Shown in pieces: positions 1 through 15,474 of a stretch of 30,689 nucleotides of DNA. The notes under the pieces are model-generated. The model worked only from the letters and a program-made list of their open reading frames with translations. It did no database searches and was not told where the DNA came from. The stretch lies in IMG/VR virus record IMGVR_UViG_3300035034_001796, positions 1 to 30,689 of that record. One strand, 5' to 3'. The stretch comes from a virus. Numbering within the stretch: position 1 is the first letter of the stretch; every line of letters starts with the position of its first letter. Position numbers and translations under genes: made by a program.

Positions 1-33
1 ATAATGTTTTGAATACTGTAAATAATGTTTTGA
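1..33. repeat. Terminal overlap, left copy
   Basis: These 33 bases are identical to 30657-30689. The sheath reading frame runs through the repeat in phase, so this is the overlap left when a circular or circularly permuted molecule is assembled, not a biological repeat inside a gene. Removing one copy leaves a circle of about 30,656 bp. Confidence 0.93.
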
Positions 34-1058
34 CTGGTGCCGTGATGAGCTATGTCAATAGTAGGTTCGTTATCACAAGTTCTACAACAGGCACATCTTC
101 AGCAGTTACTGCAATGACTTTGCCAGAGAATGGCACTGATATATCATATATTATGAATTTTGTTAATGGTGTTGACATAGTAGCAGGTCTTGATGCACAA
201 GTTTTAAGTGCTGAAACTAAAGAACAGTCTTTAATAGCTAATTACTCTGAAATAGTATTCAAGGGTGTAACATTTTTAGATCAAATGAATGATACTGAAC
301 GTTTAGCATGTGCATCTTGGTGTCAAGCAAATGATGTTCTTGGTTATGAAGTATATGATCAGCCAGTAAACTTAGATGTTAACCCAACCAATAATGTATG
401 GCAGATTATACTTAATAGTTACTCAAACTGGAGAATGTTTTATTCACCAACAAATCAGAAAAACTTGCCAGTAGTCTATATGTCAAGGCTTCATACAATG
501 AACTTAGAGGGTGATGGTACAGCTATTACCATGAACCTAAAAGAGTTGGTAGGTGTTTCTGCTGAGGACTATGATCAATCGACCATATTAAAAGCTGATA
601 GAGTTGGTCTGGATTTATATTCATCTTTAGAAAAGACAACTAAGACTGTTGTTAAGTCATCTAGTGGTAATGATTTTAGTGATAACAGATATTTTTCTAT
701 TGCTTTTGTTAATTCTTTGAAAACAGATATGTTTAATTTTTTGTCAAATACAAGTACTAAAATACCTCAAACACAGTCTGGGGTTAATCAAATTGCAGGA
801 CAAGTAGAAAAGACTATAGCTAAATATATTAGAAATGGTTTTGTTGCTGCAGGTACTTGGAACTCATCAACTAAGTTTGGTGACTATGAAGCTTTTGATA
901 GAGCTATTCAAACTCAGGGGTATTATGTTTATGCAGGTGACTTATCGGCTCAATCTCAAGCAGATAGAGAGGCTAGAAAATCAGTACCATTTCAAATAGC
1001 CGTTAAGCTTAGCGGAGCTACGCATTCGATCGAACTTATACTAACTATAGAAAAATAA
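1..1058 (+). CDS. Tail sheath protein, DUF3383 family (C-terminal part)
   Basis: This is the larger part of the contractile tail sheath. The gene starts at 30215, runs to 30656 and continues here, with codons in phase from base 3. The joined product is 499 residues, a normal length for DUF3383 sheath proteins. The segment with NDTERLACASWCQANDVLG and the C-terminal region with TQGYYVYAGDLSAQS are typical of the family. Sheath subunits form the outer contractile tube that drives the inner tube through the cell envelope. The tube gene follows 13 bases later, the standard sheath-tube order. There is no start codon of its own here; a TTG at base 9 is internal. Confidence 0.9.
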   Translation, partial: NVLNTVNNVLTGAVMSYVNSRFVITSSTTGTSSAVTAMTLPENGTDISYIMNFVNGVDIVAGLDAQVLSAETKEQSLIANYSEIVFKGVTFLDQMNDTERLACASWCQANDVLGYEVYDQPVNLDVNPTNNVWQIILNSYSNWRMFYSPTNQKNLPVVYMSRLHTMNLEGDGTAITMNLKELVGVSAEDYDQSTILKADRVGLDLYSSLEKTTKTVVKSSSGNDFSDNRYFSIAFVNSLKTDMFNFLSNTSTKIPQTQSGVNQIAGQVEKTIAKYIRNGFVAAGTWNSSTKFGDYEAFDRAIQTQGYYVYAGDLSAQSQADREARKSVPFQIAVKLSGATHSIELILTIEK

Positions 1059-1071
1059 GGGTACAAAAAAA

Positions 1072-1503
1072 ATGGCTTTAAAAACTAGTTTAATACCGAC
1101 AGAAGAAGCAACTGTGAATCTTTTTGGTACATCAATTACTGATTTTATAGCAGGCGATTACATTGAAATAACTATGCAAAATAATAAGAGTGAACAGAAA
1201 TTTGGCTCAAATACTACCGTTACTCAAAAAAATGTTACTGGTGATGCTGCTCAAATAACTCTTAATGTCATGATGTTGTCAGGTAGTGATGCTTTTTTAA
1301 ACAATACCTATAATCAGAGTTCGCCAGTAGTACAAGATGGTAGTATAAAACGTTTCTATACTAAAAACGGTATATCTAATGTTGAAACATTATCACTAAG
1401 TAATGCAACTATTCAAATGCGTAATTTGGCTAGTTATGGTAATCAAGCACCAAATGAGAGCATACAATATATTATCTCTTGTGAAGTTACAAGGCAGGTT
1501 TAG
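1072..1503 (+). CDS. Tail tube protein, DUF3277-like
   Basis: This 143-residue protein directly follows the sheath. Its size, beta-rich composition and position fit the inner tail tube of DUF3383-type myophages, where DUF3277 proteins occupy this slot. The tube forms the hollow channel for DNA. The stop codon TAG shares its last base with the upstream edge of the next gene, so the two are tightly coupled. The family call rests on position and general resemblance; no catalytic motif is expected. Confidence 0.78.
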   Translation: MALKTSLIPTEEATVNLFGTSITDFIAGDYIEITMQNNKSEQKFGSNTTVTQKNVTGDAAQITLNVMMLSGSDAFLNNTYNQSSPVVQDGSIKRFYTKNGISNVETLSLSNATIQMRNLASYGNQAPNESIQYIISCEVTRQV

Positions 1504-1505
1504 TG

Positions 1506-1802
1506 ATGTCTGATAAAAGTTTTATCGTTAATGATTTTAAGTTTGATCTTTATAACGACTCTATAAATAATAGTTTAAGGGTTGTTGGTTATTTTACAAA
1601 GATAGGTAAAATGGCTGAATTAGAAGACTATAGTTTTATAGGGACTAAGGAGCAGTTAGAGATAGCTAAATTAATGGAAGAAATGTATCAATATGACAAG
1701 GCTTTCATTTCTAAAATACCAATGTTTTGGGATGATAAAAAGAATATCTACCTGAGATGGTTTATGCAAGGAGGTGAGCTGATAGCTCGTCCATTTTTAT
1801 AG
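1506..1802 (+). CDS. Tail assembly chaperone, short (gpG-like) form
   Basis: The 98-residue product lies between the tube and tape-measure genes, where contractile and long-tailed phages encode the chaperone that coats the tape measure during tail assembly. I chose ATG 1506 over the adjacent GTG 1503 because an AGG purine run sits about eight bases before it. The 0-frame ends PFL at a TAG at 1800-1802. The sequence CCA TTT TTA TAG at the end, and a long open +1 frame beyond it, indicate that a fraction of ribosomes shift frame to make a longer gpGT-like form. No ATPase or other enzyme motif is seen. Confidence 0.72.
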   Translation: MSDKSFIVNDFKFDLYNDSINNSLRVVGYFTKIGKMAELEDYSFIGTKEQLEIAKLMEEMYQYDKAFISKIPMFWDDKKNIYLRWFMQGGELIARPFL

Positions 1803-2028
1803 AAAGAAATATATCTTAAATTTCTATACTAAAAACAATAATCATAATTATATTGGCTATACAAACGTATCAAATGCTAATCAATTTATATTCTATTTAG
1901 TCAAGAAAGGCTATGGTAAGTATAGTGATATAATTAATCTAAATACTAGCATCGTACTTGATATGCTTGAATATGAAAACATTAATAGTGATATTGAAAA
2001 TCATATAAGGTCTAATAATGATAGTTAA
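1795..2028 (+). CDS. Frameshifted C-terminal extension of tail chaperone (gpT-like)
   Basis: An open frame runs for 76 codons from TAT at 1798 to the TAA at 2026-2028, in the +1 (equivalently -2) frame relative to the upstream chaperone. It has no ATG, GTG or TTG in its first 55 codons, and a stop at 1783-1785 limits upstream extension to about 15 bases. It can therefore be made only by a shift within 1786-1800. The run TTTTT at 1794-1798 lets Phe-tRNA re-pair one base forward on TTT, giving a fused protein of about 173 residues. The extension overlaps the tape-measure start by 11 bases. A base-call error in the T run would be the trivial alternative. Confidence 0.7.
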   Translation, partial: FYRKKYILNFYTKNNNHNYIGYTNVSNANQFIFYLVKKGYGKYSDIINLNTSIVLDMLEYENINSDIENHIRSNNDS

Positions 2029-3337
2029 TGAAATTGTAAACAAAATAAAGTTTAGTGGTTCGCTATCACCTATCAAAGATTTAAATTCTAATCTTAAAGA
2101 TGCTACAACAAATATAAAAGATGTTGGTAAGGGTTTTCTAAAGATTGGTGCAGGTATCACTGGTGTTATAGGTGGTATTGCATTATTTACAAATAAAACT
2201 CTTGAGAGTAGACAGAATTTAATCAATCTATCGTCTCAAATTGGTGTATCTACAGATAAGATACAAGAGCTTGGTTATATTGCCAGTCAAACAGGTTCAA
2301 GTTTTGACACTATAGAAAATTCACTATCTGGATTAACAGATAGAATAAGCCAAGCCTTAATAACTGGTGATGAGGGATTTGCTCGATTAGGGGTATCTAT
2401 CCAAAAGTCTAACGGTGATATTAAGAAATCTGATGAACTATTATTAAACATTAGAGATAGGTTTAGTGATTTAAAATTATCTCAAGAACAAAAAGTAATG
2501 TTTGCTAATAATCTTGGATTAGATAGATCATTAATAGATATGCTATCTATGACAAATAAGCAGTTTGATGAAATACTCTCTAAGTCTACTGAGTTTGACA
2601 TAATCAGTAAAGAAGATCTTGATAAGGCTGCTGAATACAATAATACAATGCGAAGGTTAAAGACTACTTTTGCAGGGATAGCTACAGACTTAGCTATTCA
2701 ATTTGCACCAACATTTGAAAAAATGGCTAACGAGTTTGCATCTTGGGTTCGTGACAATAAAGAGTTTATCAAAGATACTGGGAAGAATTTAGGGATTACA
2801 TTAAAATATATAGCGTCAGGACTGACGGGATTAGTTAATGGTTTTAGTAGTGTTTTAAAAACAGCCAATGATTTCGGTTATTATTTAGATTCAGTTCTGG
2901 GCAGCTCTATAGACGATTTTGTAGGTGGCCTTACTAGTATATATGATATGTTTGCTAACATATTAGAAGTTGTATCGTCTGTTGGAAATAAGATAGGTAG
3001 TGTTTTTGGCTATCAAGATGATAACAAGGAAGATAGATCAAAAAAAAGAAAAGAATATTTTGATAATCTTCCTAAGGGAGTAACACCAGAAAATATACAA
3101 TATTTCACTACAAATGAAATAGAACAAATGAGGATGATGCAAGCCCCAACTCCAAGCATAAAAAATACAAATAATAGAAATACTAATAGTAGTACAAATA
3201 CTAATAATAGTACAAATAATAATATAAGTATAAATGTTCAAGGTAGTAATGCTAACGATATTGCTAAAAAAACTATGGATACTTTGAAAAGATATCTTGA
3301 TTCCACCGAGACACAAAACAAGAGTGTAATAATATGA
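2018..3337 (+). CDS. Tail tape measure protein
   Basis: This 439-residue protein has a hydrophobic glycine-rich segment near residues 40-60 (GAGITGVIGGIALF), followed by long helical stretches and a second glycine-rich patch near 265-275. It ends in an Asn/Thr/Ser-rich linker (about 385-410) before a short helical tail. That composition and its place after the chaperone identify the tape measure, which sets tail length and lines the tube before DNA ejection. It is short for a myophage; at the usual 0.15 nm per residue it predicts a tail of roughly 65 nm. ATG 2018 has AAGG eight bases upstream. It ends with a 4-base overlap into the next gene. Confidence 0.85.
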   Translation: MIVNEIVNKIKFSGSLSPIKDLNSNLKDATTNIKDVGKGFLKIGAGITGVIGGIALFTNKTLESRQNLINLSSQIGVSTDKIQELGYIASQTGSSFDTIENSLSGLTDRISQALITGDEGFARLGVSIQKSNGDIKKSDELLLNIRDRFSDLKLSQEQKVMFANNLGLDRSLIDMLSMTNKQFDEILSKSTEFDIISKEDLDKAAEYNNTMRRLKTTFAGIATDLAIQFAPTFEKMANEFASWVRDNKEFIKDTGKNLGITLKYIASGLTGLVNGFSSVLKTANDFGYYLDSVLGSSIDDFVGGLTSIYDMFANILEVVSSVGNKIGSVFGYQDDNKEDRSKKRKEYFDNLPKGVTPENIQYFTTNEIEQMRMMQAPTPSIKNTNNRNTNSSTNTNNSTNNNISINVQGSNANDIAKKTMDTLKRYLDSTETQNKSVII

Positions 3338-10077: not shown

Positions 10078-11268
10078 ATGAAATTATCAGATTTAAAAAT
10101 AAAGAAACTTCAAGTAACAGGTAAGGATTATAGAGTACCTGATGGCAATAATCTATATGTAAGGGTAAATAAGACTGGCAACAAATCTTTTTTATTTAGG
10201 TTTTCTAATGATGGTAAGGAGAGGATTTTAACTATTGGTAAGTACCCAGAGATAAGCTTGTCAGATGCTAGACAAATATCATTAAATGTTAAGCGTGATA
10301 TATCTAATGGAATAACTCCAAGAGTAAGAAAAGATGATAAGTTTAAAAAATTCAAAAAGTTCGCTGATGAATGGATAGAGAATATAAAAAAAAGTGGTGC
10401 GAGCAAAAGACACATAGAATCATCAATATCTAGGCTTGATAAATATGTATATCCATCTATTGGGAATACAAATATTGATAAAATAGTACCCTTAGACATA
10501 GTTGATCTGTTAAGAAAAATGGAAACACTAGGATATTATGAACAAAGAGATAAAGTTAAATCTAATATAAATATGGTATTTAGATATGCTATTGCTAGTG
10601 GGATTTGTTTATATAACCCTGCTAGAGATATTTCAGCAGCACTTATAAAGCATAGTTCTCAAAATTTTGCTTTTATTGATCCAGTCAAACAAAGGCATGA
10701 TCTTAAGCAGTTATTTACAGATATATTTAATATGGATAATAAGGTATTAGAGAATGCATTTAAGATGTCTATTTATACAGCATTAAGACCTAGTGAATTG
10801 ATAAATCTTGAATGGAGTGAAATAGTTGGTAGTCAAATTATAATCCCTGCTAAAAGAATGAAAATGAAGAGAGAGCACATAGTACCACTATCTAGGCAAG
10901 CTTTAGACGCTATAACTACATTAAGAGAAATAAGCATCAATAAAACATACTTATTCCCATCTTATTCTATACATGGGCAAGCTATGAACAGAAATATTTT
11001 AAATCAGAATTTAGTTCGGTTAGGTTATGATGGTAAGGGAAATAAGCCAAAGCAAGTGGCTCACGGATTAAGACATTTAATATCTACTTCGCTATATGAG
11101 ATGGCAAACAAATATAAATGGAGGAGTGAGGCTATTGAGAAAATATTAGCCCATGAAGAAAGTAATAGGGTTAAATCTACTTACAATAAATTCGAGTATC
11201 TGGACGAAAGGGCGGATATACTGCAGAAATGGGCTAATCATATTGATAGTATTATTTCTCACAACTAG
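10078..11268 (+). CDS. int: Tyrosine integrase, P4 type with DUF4102 N-terminus
   Basis: The 396-residue protein has the DUF4102 DNA-binding domain (about 1-85; LYVRVNKTGNKSFLFRF, LTIGKYPEISLSDAR), a core-binding domain (about 90-190) and a catalytic domain. The catalytic residues are R237 in TALRPSE, H329 and R332 in AHGLRH, H359 in LAHE and the nucleophile Y369. All are present, so it should be active. It would recombine attP with a bacterial attB and, with an excisionase, reverse this. No good ribosome site precedes the ATG. Its 3' end overlaps the opposing excisionase gene by 17 bases. Confidence 0.95.
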   Translation: MKLSDLKIKKLQVTGKDYRVPDGNNLYVRVNKTGNKSFLFRFSNDGKERILTIGKYPEISLSDARQISLNVKRDISNGITPRVRKDDKFKKFKKFADEWIENIKKSGASKRHIESSISRLDKYVYPSIGNTNIDKIVPLDIVDLLRKMETLGYYEQRDKVKSNINMVFRYAIASGICLYNPARDISAALIKHSSQNFAFIDPVKQRHDLKQLFTDIFNMDNKVLENAFKMSIYTALRPSELINLEWSEIVGSQIIIPAKRMKMKREHIVPLSRQALDAITTLREISINKTYLFPSYSIHGQAMNRNILNQNLVRLGYDGKGNKPKQVAHGLRHLISTSLYEMANKYKWRSEAIEKILAHEESNRVKSTYNKFEYLDERADILQKWANHIDSIISHN

Positions 11269-11545: not shown

Positions 11546-12364
11546 TTAGCAAAGACCGACTAGCTCATGATCATAGATAGTCTTTGTCATATTCTCTTCA
11601 AGATACATAACTTGATTAGCAACTCCAAACATCTTTTGAATATCGCCTTTTAGTACTCGTAAAAGTATCTTACTAGCCACCCAATCCATTGTAAGCGGTG
11701 TTAAGTCAAGAGTAGGGTGCAAGTCTCGCATACTCCTAAAGAAGCTATCTAGGTTGGTATCTTTTGAAGTAAGATAACTAAAATTAAACTCTTTGACTTT
11801 TCTAGTAGCTTGTAGATTTGGTATATGGCTACTGACTTGGCGTTTAGGTTGCTTATTCACTTTTTGAATAAGTGAGTTACATTCATAACGCCATTTCTCT
11901 ATTTGATTATCATAGTAGCTTTTAACTTCGCTTATCTCTTGCTCGTGGTATAGTTGCACTTCTTTGAGGCTATCACGCTCACTCTTGAATGCTCCAGCTC
12001 TTAGCTTTTCATTTTTGAGTTGACGAGCTTGCTCTTTGGATTGAGTATCTAGTATGTGCTGTTCCATAGAGTTAAAAGCATTAATGTAAGCTTCTTTGAA
12101 CTCACTCGCCTTTTTGCCAGTGAATCCCATTATCAAGAAAACTAAGCCATCTCTTGTGATGTTGTAAGATAATAATTCTCTACCTGATAGGTCTGTATAT
12201 TTACTCAACACAAAATTGTGTTTAGTGAAATTTTGACTACAATCTAAATCTTTTACCTTTCTCAATACTTGCTCATGTCTCTTACCGAAAACTTTGGCAA
12301 CATCATTGCTAGTAGTTACAAGTTGATTGTTTTTCACTTGAATTAAGTCTGTTATGTTTTTCAT
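11546..12364 (-). CDS. rha: Rha family phage regulatory protein
   Basis: The 272-residue product, read from ATG 12364 with AGAGGA upstream, begins with the Rha domain: TTSNDVAKVFGKRHEQVLRK, then LSGRELLSYNITRDGLVFLIMGFTGKKA and FKEAYINAFNSME (residues about 15-105). A coiled coil (about 105-165) and an unrecognised C-terminal domain follow. Rha proteins are prophage antirepressor-like regulators. The frame stays open for 43 codons upstream to a GTG at 12493, but that stretch contains the C4 RNA target and lacks a good ribosome site. The gene is preceded by a promoter and a C4-like RNA, and followed by a terminator. Confidence 0.88.
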   Translation of the reverse strand: MKNITDLIQVKNNQLVTTSNDVAKVFGKRHEQVLRKVKDLDCSQNFTKHNFVLSKYTDLSGRELLSYNITRDGLVFLIMGFTGKKASEFKEAYINAFNSMEQHILDTQSKEQARQLKNEKLRAGAFKSERDSLKEVQLYHEQEISEVKSYYDNQIEKWRYECNSLIQKVNKQPKRQVSSHIPNLQATRKVKEFNFSYLTSKDTNLDSFFRSMRDLHPTLDLTPLTMDWVASKILLRVLKGDIQKMFGVANQVMYLEENMTKTIYDHELVGLC

Positions 12365-12412
12365 TTTAATATTCCTCTTTATGTTTTGGTTATCAATCAA
12401 ATTGTCGGGTGG

Positions 12413-12434
12413 TTGATAACATGACACTTGCGGA
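12413..12434 (-). promoter_or_regulatory. Target site for the C4-like RNA in the rha leader
   Basis: On the minus strand this reads TCCGCAAGTGT, then CAT, then GTTATCAA. The two blocks are exact complements (11 and 8 bases) of ACACTTGCGGA and TTGATAAC in the upstream RNA, in the correct antiparallel order. The site is about 50 bases before the rha ATG and inside the upstream in-frame leader. A 17-codon leader ORF in another frame, with its own AGG-type site, also crosses it. Confidence 0.65.
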
Positions 12435-12529
12435 ATACACAAACATGCACTAAAGCCTTTCCTATTGCTAGGTATTGTATAGCTATAGTCCACCCAAACT
12501 CTTGAACAACAAAAGAAAGGATATATTTA

Positions 12530-12580
12530 ATGGAGTTATTTGAACTCCGCAAGTGTTATGGGTTATCAAGCCCAACACTT
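12530..12580 (-). ncRNA. C4-like antisense RNA upstream of rha
   Basis: On the minus strand the first hairpin pairs AAGTGT with ACACTT and TGGG with CCCA around the loop CTTGATAA. A second hairpin, GGAGTT-CAAAT-AACTCC, follows at once. This is the architecture of C4 antisense RNAs of P1/P7, which sit at the 5' end of antirepressor operons. The loop and the 3' side of hairpin I carry the sequences complementary to the rha leader at 12413-12434. A sigma70-like promoter places the transcript start at the base of hairpin I. In P1, C4 is cut from the same transcript and blocks leader translation and elongation; the same mechanism here is inferred. Confidence 0.66.
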
Positions 12581-12582
12581 AC

Positions 12583-12611
12583 AGAATAATAGAGAATTAT
12601 TTATTTGTCAA
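12583..12611 (-). promoter_or_regulatory. Leftward promoter for C4-like RNA and rha
   Basis: On the minus strand TTGACA (12606-12611) is separated by 17 bases from TATTCT (12583-12588). The -35 is a perfect consensus match. The predicted start, near 12577, coincides with the first hairpin of the C4-like RNA, which supports both calls. Confidence 0.65.
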
Positions 12612-12617
12612 GAAAGA

Positions 12618-13178
12618 TTAATTTTTATGAAACAATGTAATACTAGCTAACGCTAATGTGATAATAATAAAAACAGGGTTTAAGATAACAAGCCATTTAA
12701 GCGTATTTGCTTTCTTAGCATTGATTTTCATATTTTCATGCTTAGTCTTATCAGTCATAATTATATGAACCAATAAGTTAGTTTTATAATCTTGCTTCAA
12801 ATTTGTATTACATAACACTTCACTAGCCTGTATACCTTCAGCATAATAATAACTTGGTTTAAAGTTTAACCATATAACGATAATAAAAAAAACCAACTCT
12901 ATTATCGATAGTGCTAAAAATATTGATACTATGAATAAGTTATTGGACTGTAGATACCCATTAACCATAAAAGCTATGCAACCTAAACAAAATGTAGCGT
13001 ATATAAAGTATTTATTGCTTAACCTATCCTTGGATGCTGTTATTGCATTTAAATTTTCTTTTGCACCTTGTAATATCAGCTCTAAAACCTTAGGGTCTGA
13101 TTGCTTGAATATATCACTAGTATCACTTACTATCTCATCTTTTTGCATATCTTTAGTATTCAATATTATTTTAAACAT
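12618..13178 (-). CDS. Three-helix membrane protein, possible exclusion or defence factor
   Basis: I do not recognise this family firmly. The 186-residue product has a cytosolic helix (about 28-52), two close transmembrane segments (about 58-74 and 81-104), a helical cytosolic part (about 105-158) and a third transmembrane segment (about 160-182). The layout, a helix with conserved-looking KDRLSNK just before a hairpin of two membrane helices, recalls SLATT/Pycsar-type membrane effectors, but it could be an ordinary exclusion protein. Start is uncertain: ATG 13178 follows a TATAAT and has no ribosome site; ATG 13148 is possible. It lies between the recombination genes and the rha promoter, a common spot for accessory genes. 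Confidence 0.7.
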   Translation of the reverse strand: MFKIILNTKDMQKDEIVSDTSDIFKQSDPKVLELILQGAKENLNAITASKDRLSNKYFIYATFCLGCIAFMVNGYLQSNNLFIVSIFLALSIIELVFFIIVIWLNFKPSYYYAEGIQASEVLCNTNLKQDYKTNLLVHIIMTDKTKHENMKINAKKANTLKWLVILNPVFIIITLALASITLFHKN

Positions 13179-13219
13179 ATTATATCATCATGTGTGATCT
13201 GCATAGACCAACTCTTTTA

Positions 13220-13498
13220 TTAATCCTCCAAAATCACTGCATGAACAACTTTAACCTTTTGCAGCATCAGCAGAGTAAGCAGGTCGTTATTATCAACACA
13301 AATATACTCGTCAACTTCAAAACCAGTCTCGTCTACATAACTTTCTTTTCTAAGCACTATAGTCAGCAAATTAAGCTCATCTATACGACTTGTAAGCTCT
13401 GCTAATGTTTTGTTTACATAAGGCTTTATGATTTGAGCTACTGGGATTACTTTTATTTGTGAATGGCTATAGCCTTTTTGTTTTAAGTAGTTAGGCAT
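13220..13498 (-). CDS. Hypothetical protein, 92 residues
   Basis: The protein family is not recognised. It is a mixed alpha/beta, soluble protein with an acidic centre (VDETGFEVDEYICVDNNDLL). Its ATG overlaps the end of the YopX-like gene by eight bases, so it is translationally coupled within the leftward operon. The sequence looks protein-like and in step with its neighbours. Confidence 0.68.
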   Translation of the reverse strand: MPNYLKQKGYSHSQIKVIPVAQIIKPYVNKTLAELTSRIDELNLLTIVLRKESYVDETGFEVDEYICVDNNDLLTLLMLQKVKVVHAVILED

Positions 13499-13955
13499 TT
13501 CCTAAAATCTCGGGATTTTCGTAGATGTTGCTAGTAATCTCAATATTATTAATCTTAACAGTTCCTTCTTTTAAAAACTCCTCATTATCTATAGAATACC
13601 TCCCAACAAATGATCCATTTTCAAAACAAACTACACATTCAACTTCAACCCAATAAGTAACATTGGATGCGGTAGTCATTCCTTTTGGGACAAGTAGAAC
13701 CTCTTTTTTATAAATATCTCCCTCATATATTTCCTTACTCATAATATGTACTTGAGACTTATCAAAATAATCATCAAAGTTGTCTATGGTCTCAGTAAAA
13801 GTAGCAGGGTCTGTTTTAATTACCCCAAATAAAGATACAAACTTTTTCATCATATCTGAGGTTAAATTATATTCACCACTGTAGTACATTTCACTTTCTA
13901 TTCTAGGATCACCTCCTCCGTGTGACCAAGCTCTGAATTTAATTTCTCTTCTCAT
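13491..13955 (-). CDS. YopX-like protein carrying a duplicated DUF1071 tail
   Basis: The 154-residue product starts at ATG 13955 with AAGGAG upstream; a GTG at 13976 is less likely. The first residues (MRREIKFRAWS) and the end (KEIYEGDIYKKE ... SNIYENPEILG) are those of YopX-family phage proteins, of unknown function. The middle, about residues 27-73 (YNLTSDMMKKFVSLFGVIKTD ...), is not YopX but a near copy of the C-terminus of the DUF1071 protein encoded just upstream. The copy differs by two residues (T for I, S for F). The reading frame is intact, so this is a chimera and not a visible pseudogene. Confidence 0.8.
   Translation of the reverse strand: MRREIKFRAWSHGGGDPRIESEMYYSGEYNLTSDMMKKFVSLFGVIKTDPATFTETIDNFDDYFDKSQVHIMSKEIYEGDIYKKEVLLVPKGMTTASNVTYWVEVECVVCFENGSFVGRYSIDNEEFLKEGTVKINNIEITSNIYENPEILGNA
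13737..13875. repeat. 139-bp direct repeat, copy A (inside yopX-like gene)
   Basis: This segment matches 14183-14321 with three mismatches (at 13756, 13789 and 13857). The two copies are 446 bases apart in the same orientation. Copy A replaces what should be the middle of a YopX protein. Confidence 0.95.
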
Positions 13956-14172
13956 TTTTACTCTCCTTAACTTCACTAATAATAAACCTTATCAATATAT
14001 TTCGAAGGTCTCTCAAATTCCACCAAATGATAAATACGAAAAGAAATAATGCTTTTTGATAAATAGTCATTTCTTGAAAAGAAAAAACCTGTATAAGGAA
14101 TAAAATAAATAAAAATATAATTGATGCTTGCCAGTTACCACACTTATTCCATATTTTATGAATAATTTTCAT
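13939..14172 (-). CDS. Small membrane protein
   Basis: The 77-residue product, read from ATG 14172 (GTG 14184 is an alternative), has two hydrophobic helices (about residues 14-32 and 39-57) flanked by lysine- and arginine-rich ends, with a charged C-terminal tail (EVKESKNEKRN). No family is recognised. It overlaps the YopX-like start by 17 bases and lies exactly between the two copies of the 139-bp repeat. Confidence 0.62.
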   Translation of the reverse strand: MKIIHKIWNKCGNWQASIIFLFILFLIQVFSFQEMTIYQKALFLFVFIIWWNLRDLRNILIRFIISEVKESKNEKRN

Positions 14173-14176
14173 TGTT

Positions 14177-14827
14177 TTACTCACTCATAATATGTACTTG
14201 AAACTTATCAAAATAATCATCAAAGTTGTCTATGATCTCAGTAAAAGTAGCAGGGTCTGTTTTAATTACCCCAAATAAAGATACAAACTTTTTCATCATA
14301 TCGGAGGTTAAATTATATTCATCAAATTTTTCTTTTAAGTCTTTGACGGTATATTGCACTTGTTCTACATGATAAGCCTTTTGAGTATCAGATTGAATTT
14401 GAGTTTGTGGCTGTTTGGCATTGGTAAATATTTTAGGGGCTTCTTCAGTTGGCAAATCTTCACCTGCATATATGTATATCCCAAGACCGTGGCGAGCTAT
14501 AGCTTTTGTTAAAGCTCTTTGTATAGTCTTGTTAACATCAACACTTGTAACTGAATTAACTAATATTGATTTGTTTCTAGTATCCATGATAGGTAACATT
14601 TCTATATGCTCAATACTCTCAACAGTTACACCTACTTTAACCCAACAAGTCCTACCATCTGTAAAATAATTAATATCTTCTTTCTCATATATTTTGTAAG
14701 TAGATTTAGGATATATCTTCATTAAATTATCCCAAGCAAAAGACCAACTTAAGTACTTCAAACTACCTTTTGTTTTAATATGATCATTTACATTTATAGT
14801 ACTTAATTTTGCATAAACTTCACTCAT
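14177..14827 (-). CDS. DUF1071 single-strand annealing protein (Sak3-like)
   Basis: The 216-residue protein has the DUF1071 signature near the N-terminus (KYLSWSFAWDNLMKIYPKSTYKIYE, split here only for reading) and VNKTIQRALTKAIARHGLGIYIY at about 98-120, as in Rad52-like phage annealing proteins. These coat single-stranded DNA and anneal complementary strands during phage recombination. After residue 130 a low-complexity Gln/Thr linker leads to a small helical domain (about 160-212). That domain is the one copied into the YopX-like gene. It works logically with SSB and RusA from the rightward operon. Confidence 0.83.
   Translation of the reverse strand: MSEVYAKLSTINVNDHIKTKGSLKYLSWSFAWDNLMKIYPKSTYKIYEKEDINYFTDGRTCWVKVGVTVESIEHIEMLPIMDTRNKSILVNSVTSVDVNKTIQRALTKAIARHGLGIYIYAGEDLPTEEAPKIFTNAKQPQTQIQSDTQKAYHVEQVQYTVKDLKEKFDEYNLTSDMMKKFVSLFGVIKTDPATFTEIIDNFDDYFDKFQVHIMSE
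14183..14321. repeat. 139-bp direct repeat, copy B (3' end of annealing-protein gene)
   Basis: This copy encodes the last 45 residues of the DUF1071 protein and is the likely source of copy A at 13737-13875. The high identity (136 of 139) indicates a recent event or ongoing gene conversion. Confidence 0.95.
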
Positions 14828-14828
14828 A

Positions 14829-14951
14829 CTAAGACCCCCGATATTCCCTACATAGTTGATAAAACTCTAACCTAACTTTTTTAGGTATTTTTCGTAACTC
14901 ACTCAAACTAGGCATCACAAAATATGGAGATGCTGGGTGTTGTAATATCAT
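14829..14951 (-). CDS. Small hypothetical protein, 40 residues
   Basis: This small gene starts at ATG 14951 behind GTGAGGAAG and stops at TAG 14829-14831, two bases before the annealing-protein ATG. The product is basic in its second half (LRKIPKKVRLEFYQLCREYR) and proline-rich at the start. It fills the gap between the Gp157 and DUF1071 genes exactly, which supports it as a real cistron. No family is recognised. Confidence 0.62.
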   Translation of the reverse strand: MILQHPASPYFVMPSLSELRKIPKKVRLEFYQLCREYRGS

Positions 14952-14958
14952 AACTTCC

Positions 14959-15474
14959 TCACTTAATCATTAATCTTTTATCAGGTCGTACTAATCGAAC
15001 ACCATCTATTTCAATACCATCTTTCAAAGCTTTCTTTAGATCTGTTTTAGATGGCTCCACTTTTATCCTGCAATACTCTTGTGGGATATCAGCATCACCA
15101 TCAATCTCCACACTTTCAAGACCTGCTAAACAACTAAGCTTAATAGTTGTAAAGTCGAACTTCTCGCCTTTATCTACATTCTCTAGTATGTAGTTTTTCA
15201 TACGCTCTTTAGCATTCGTCTTAGTACGCTTTAAAGTTTGTAGTCGCTTGATTTCTTGACTAATAACATCTTCATCAAGTTCAAGGCTTTTAGTGTAGTA
15301 AACACAATTTTTTATCTTATCTTCACGAGATAATGAAAGGGCGTTTAAAGCCTTGTCGTATTCCTCTTGTGTGATAACTTCGCCAGTATTAGCATCAGCT
15401 ACATACTCCGCATCTAAACTAATCATATTGATTAATGCATTCTCAAATTCTTTGTTTAATAAATATAAATTCAT
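14959..15474 (-). CDS. Gp157 family protein
   Basis: The 171-residue protein has the Gp157 pattern: an N-terminal helix, AEYVADANTGEVITQEEYDKAL near residue 25, a long central coiled coil with ISQEIKRLQTLKRTKTNAKERMKNYI, and a C-terminal domain with CRIKVEPSKTDLKKALKDGIEIDGV. Gp157 proteins occur beside recombination genes in many phages; resistance or recombination roles have been suggested. Its stop overlaps the ribosome site of the next small gene. Confidence 0.86.
   Translation of the reverse strand: MNLYLLNKEFENALINMISLDAEYVADANTGEVITQEEYDKALNALSLSREDKIKNCVYYTKSLELDEDVISQEIKRLQTLKRTKTNAKERMKNYILENVDKGEKFDFTTIKLSCLAGLESVEIDGDADIPQEYCRIKVEPSKTDLKKALKDGIEIDGVRLVRPDKRLMIK

Follow-up and report, generated by a model that had tools for sequence, protein, structure and literature searches.

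In a phage genome of 30,689 bases (IMG/VR record IMGVR_UViG_3300035034_001796, which over its full length is the window analyzed here), the gene for the tail assembly chaperone is best explained as part of a frameshifted chaperone pair, the long form of which would most probably arise from a −2 shift by Leu-tRNA at a TTA codon that is followed directly by the stop codon TAG, with stimulation by an internal Shine-Dalgarno (SD) sequence. Judged from its sequence, this is a tail assembly chaperone pair of the G/GT type in a myophage with a DUF3383 sheath. That a frameshift occurs, in which direction it runs, which tRNA is involved and what role the SD sequence has is what we infer in the following.

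The pair lies between the tube gene and the gene for the tape-measure protein (Table 1), after which come baseplate genes, the integrase and regulators, and then terminase, portal and head genes. By its gene content the phage is temperate, with recombination genes of its own. The sheath gene runs in frame across the contig ends (30215-30689 joined to 1-1058) and encodes 510 amino acids without a stop, so that the contig, though classed as linear, is probably a complete circular map. On the minus strand, 10078-11268 and 11546-15474 hold an integrase, a Rha/Ant-like regulator, a Sak-like annealing protein and a Gam-like protein. The chaperone frame ends in ...GCT CGT CCA TTT TTA TAG, while the extension frame of 80 codons is open from 1786 to its stop at 2026-2028, overlaps the tape-measure gene by 11 nt and has no ATG, GTG or TTG start in its first part.

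Table 1. Features of the tail chaperone locus, in positions of the window.
Feature	Position	Strand	Remarks
Sheath gene	3-1058		DUF3383
Tube gene	1072-1503		PHROG 280; equivalent gene in relative L006 annotated as tail tube protein
Tail assembly chaperone, short form	1506-1802	+	Start ATG 1506 or GTG 1503; stop TAG 1800-1802
Internal SD sequence AAGGAGGTGA, proposed stimulator	1768-1777	+	Best anti-SD match on the strand
Small hairpin GAGCT-GAT-AGCTC between SD sequence and site	1776-1788	+	Possible second element, weakly indicated
Extension frame, C-terminal domain of the long chaperone form	1786-2028	+	+1 relative to the chaperone
Putative shift site CCA_TTT_TTA_TAG	1791-1802	+	From sequence and comparison with 29 relatives
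Tail tape-measure protein, with its own SD-like sequence	2018-3337	+	Start ATG 2018

The original prediction, that the chaperone stops at TAG 1800 and that a frame without a start continues to the tape-measure gene, is confirmed by both sequence and homology. At the same base composition, 76 open codons would arise by chance with a probability of about 0.001. In tblastn the extension matches eight Vibrio phage records (38.6-42.5% identity, E 2e-11 to 1e-7), with about 35-43% identity overall to the frame behind the chaperone gene of Vibrio myophages, and the matched stretch always lies directly after the chaperone gene and directly before the tape-measure gene; the extension also matches PHROG 16793 (E 1.7e-10), and the first extension alignment has 20 invariant columns. 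Because of this homology to PHROG 16793 and to the C-terminal frames of Vibrio phage chaperones, for which the original prediction had proposed to search, the extension is coding. The second frame thus overlaps the chaperone end, has no start of its own and is conserved as protein. The chaperone part has no direct Pfam match; it can be aligned with the chaperones of the relatives, six of which match PF10876 (Phage_TAC_9), and it is found by an iterated profile with E 1.7e-28, a value from a profile that may include the window itself. Its last residues P-F-L are invariant in the chaperone alignment with the Vibrio relatives.

Loci of relatives were obtained by scans with tape-measure profiles, and iterated profiles for both parts yielded 29 distinct relatives that have both, among them eight Vibrio phage records, some of which are identical at the site, as well as a Methyloprofundus MAG. 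The extension lies in the −1 frame of the chaperone in 28 of these, and the site of the last one, L017 (C_CCT_TTC), also fits −1, giving 29/29, with L017 taken as supporting evidence only, since Ns and a change of frame interrupt its chaperone. Every one of the 29 has CCT at the corresponding Pro-Phe/Leu codons, with TTT, TTC or TTA next to it, mostly as C_CCT_TTT (CCT is preceded by C in 25 relatives, by T in 3 and by A in 1), and their continuous conserved block starts at the slip site. Since CCT makes up 31% of the Pro codons in the relatives' longest genes and is present at the site in every one of them, it is conserved as DNA, a formal p value for this being meaningless owing to the relatedness among the 29. 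In L016 (2249-2281) CCT_TTT is kept, but a TAA directly after the site closes the −1 frame, hence this relative must slip further 3', on a run of nine A.

The earlier claim that the phage studied here would need +1 or −2 instead of −1 is correct, and the uniform use of −1 among the relatives makes such a need unusual in this family. Homologues with both parts in one frame, named beforehand as the finding that would speak against a shift, were absent among the relatives collected. The site is carried by one contig population: searches of viral_contigs with proteins, with profiles and with the exact DNA pattern gave no closer relative that shares it, and neither did a search of genome_contigs with the extension profile. 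A DNA-level search of phage records gave short, unrelated matches only.

Compared with the 29 relatives, this phage alone has CCA instead of CCT, in the full context T_CCA_TTT_TTA_TAG, and it has one base fewer between the site and the conserved R-x-x-Y-x-L motif. The two changes fit together, as the T lost from CCT is the base that lets tRNA-Phe slip back by one, a direction that no longer serves to reach the extension; a single indel error would account for the missing base only. T_CCA_TTT_TTA, with the extension in the +1/−2 frame, does not form a canonical −1 heptamer of the type X_XXY_YYZ. Because of the sequence of the site and the base lost just behind it, only a +1 or a −2 shift reaches the extension; provided that the sequence is right this requirement is firm, and we consider it very probable overall. 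As read by eye, the feasible re-pairings in the sole possible stretch (1786-1802) are TTT to TTT for +1 and TTA to TTT for −2.

Ten bases of the proposed stimulator, AAGGAGGTGA, are complementary to the 16S rRNA tail, with −17.3 kcal/mol at 1768-1777 against −13.4 for the next best match on the whole plus strand and a median anti-SD value of −5.5 at the annotated starts of this phage. A match as strong was absent from five simulated sequences of equal dinucleotide make-up. It falls inside a coding region, away from gene starts, and no start codon stands behind it in the extension frame. Since AGGAGGT arises in about 9% of the synonymous codings of the peptide QGGE, the match taken alone is moderate evidence. 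The anti-SD complementarity of the relatives peaks at a single register, d=7, with a mean of −8.1 kcal/mol, and their mean best energy of −9.25 was reached by 0/500 synonymous shuffles (mean −6.97, sd 0.49). SD-like elements stand 5-25 nt before the CCT codon in L004, L016, L084, L085, L087, L089 and others. At d=7 the SD core of the relatives ends 10 nt before the C_CCT_TTN heptamer, which is within the reported range of 9-14 nt.

In this phage the SD sequence reaches −20.7 at d=12, and hence stands 5 nt further upstream than the family register. From the end of its core to the P-site codon there are 19-22 nt (19 nt to TTT), compared with 9-14 nt for stimulators of −1 shifts, as in dnaX, and 3 nt for those of +1 shifts, as in RF2 (PMC5009743). 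The spacing therefore exceeds that of −1 sites and is outside any that we found reported; because +1 stimulators sit at 3 nt, the more distant SD sequence suggests a backward shift rather than +1. We know of no spacing rule for stimulators of −2 shifts. The small hairpin between SD sequence and site could shorten the effective SD distance, and the folding energy of its region is no better than that of shuffles (z −0.37). A stem-loop or pseudoknot downstream of the site was rejected as a stimulator, the folding of 1800-1870 being no better than that of shuffles (z −0.07).

In the proposed −2 mechanism, most ribosomes would end at TAG 1800 and produce the short form, while a minority would shift and produce the long form. 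At the moment of the shift, the A site would hold TAG, a slow stop codon, and the P site TTA; peptidyl-tRNA-Leu would then slip two bases, from TTA (1797-1799) to TTT (1795-1797), probably stimulated by the very strong SD sequence 5' of the site, and reading would resume at TAT (1798-1800) to give ...RPFL-YRKKYILNF.... The predicted product P-F-L-Y-R-K-K-Y-I-L fits the spacing P-F-x-x-R/K-x-x-(Y/W/L)-x-(L/F) of 28 relatives, in which a basic residue (R, or K) is at position 5 from Pro and Y, W or L at position 8. The length of this linker is a strong constraint and not an absolute one, as L016 tolerates one extra residue.

The −2 shift is favored over +1, in which tRNA-Phe on TTT (1794-1796) would slip forward to TTT (1795-1797) and continue with TAT, and which we regard as unlikely, though it is the strongest of the alternatives. 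What counts against −2 is its re-pairing, as TTA to TTT leaves a U-U wobble mismatch, whereas TTT to TTT is perfect. Shifts of +1 are, moreover, known in phage structural genes, namely SPP1 gp17.1* (PMC6316719) and genes of Listeria phages (PMC5009743), as well as on UUU in influenza PA-X, as outlined in PMC3498833, and they can be stimulated by a hairpin directly upstream of the site (PMC6321510), such as that at 1776-1788, which however folds no better than expected by chance. The original prediction had envisaged a Phe-tRNA next to the stop codon; the slip itself is possible, but while TTT is in the P site, the A-site codon is TTA and not the stop. This codon is common in the phage (35.2 per 1000, against 33.0 for TAT), so that a +1 move would have to occur without a slow step. 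Also against +1 are the SD sequence, which is away from the 3-nt spacing typical of such sites, and the product RPF-YRKKYIL, which falls one residue short of the spacing kept by nearly all relatives. The predicted tryptic peptides across the junction differ, being ...GGELIARPFLYR for −2 and ...GGELIARPFYR for +1.

It is improbable that the site is an artefact or belongs to a defective copy, with a base missing in the assembly or in the phage and living phages using −1 like the relatives, even though it is precisely here that the sequence has one base fewer than all relatives, and the two records with this site begin at the same base and agree without a difference over 13,859 bases. The second of these, IMG/VR record 3300012147_000218, is not independent: it equals the first 13,859 bases from the same start, being the left-hand portion of that contig. 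An indel error would explain neither the change of CCT to CCA nor the SD sequence 5 nt further away, both of which argue against a simple sequencing error; in addition, five T in a row are not difficult to sequence, the remaining tail, head and integrase genes are full open reading frames with family matches, and the sheath frame stays open across the contig ends. Separate translation of the extension, by re-initiation or from a non-AUG start, could draw on the strongest SD match of the plus strand and is nevertheless very improbable: ATG, GTG, TTG and CTG are absent at a usable distance in the extension frame, which is closed by TAG at 1783-1785, the first near-start codon, ATC 1813, lies within the conserved Y-x-L motif, and conservation among the homologues is unbroken from the slip site onward. 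Equally improbable is transcriptional slippage on the T run or a short ribosomal hop. A transcript one base shorter would fuse the frames, but slippage runs of RNA polymerase usually have 8 or more bases, and five T are short for it. For a hop, there is a second TTA in the extension frame at 1816-1818, and take-off at TTA-TAG together with a 5' hairpin recalls T4 gene 60 (PMC5009743), yet a landing at 1816 would leave the conserved R and Y out of the product. Readthrough of TAG 1800 was rejected, as it would continue in the wrong frame.

The closest counterparts are the Vibrio myophages VBM1, Athena1, XM1, 1.154.O and 1.052.A, which have the DUF3383 sheath, and about 20 uncultured relatives. 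They share with this phage the order sheath, tube, chaperone, extension and tape measure, the homologous chaperone and extension, the shift at the same Pro-Phe codons and an SD-like element upstream; in contrast to their −1 shift on C_CCT_TTN, this phage has CCA_TTT_TTA_TAG with one base fewer and the stop directly behind, and its SD sequence is much stronger. Tail chaperones with −1, −2 or +1 shifts are known (PMC5009743; PMC2628397), and the precedent for −2 is the chaperone gp41 of Mu (Xu et al., 2004, as cited in PMC5009743). In Mu, as here, the frames of chaperone and extension are +1/−2 related, and its site, read from the sequence as CGG GGG CGA, would allow GGG to re-pair with GGG two bases back. 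The likeness is one of frame arrangement: in Mu the slip takes place on the glycine codon GGG while a sense codon stands in the A site, whereas the slip proposed here is on Leu TTA with a stop adjacent. An internal SD sequence upstream of the shift site is shared with E. coli dnaX (−1, SD stimulated) and RF2 prfB (+1), the latter also having a stop codon at the site. In Haemophilus phage Aaphi23, a DUF3383 phage, ORF54-54' is an annotated frameshift fusion between the tube and tape-measure genes; its extension frame is −1, and its match to the extension profile is not significant (E 3.7). A literature search on frameshifting in this DUF3383 phage group gave no paper.

Shifts of −2 are rare, the cases listed in PMC5009743 being Mu, arteriviruses and one protozoan virus. 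We tentatively propose, as a possibility somewhat short of even, that this lineage evolved a −2 shift within a −1 family through loss of one base and of the codon slippery for −1, with the SD sequence moved 5 nt further upstream, and that the shift may be stop-assisted, SD-stimulated and carried out by a single peptidyl-tRNA-Leu moving from UUA to UUU. One lineage in an otherwise −1 family would then have changed the direction or the step size of its shift and kept the protein product. The comparison also exposes an SD element across the family, and the long chaperone form of this phage would escape annotation tools that seek only −1 heptamers. The locus has the look of a naturally arisen switch from one mode of slipping to another, and the determinants of slip size, namely slippery codons, a stop in the A site and the distance of the SD sequence, become testable with 29 natural controls.
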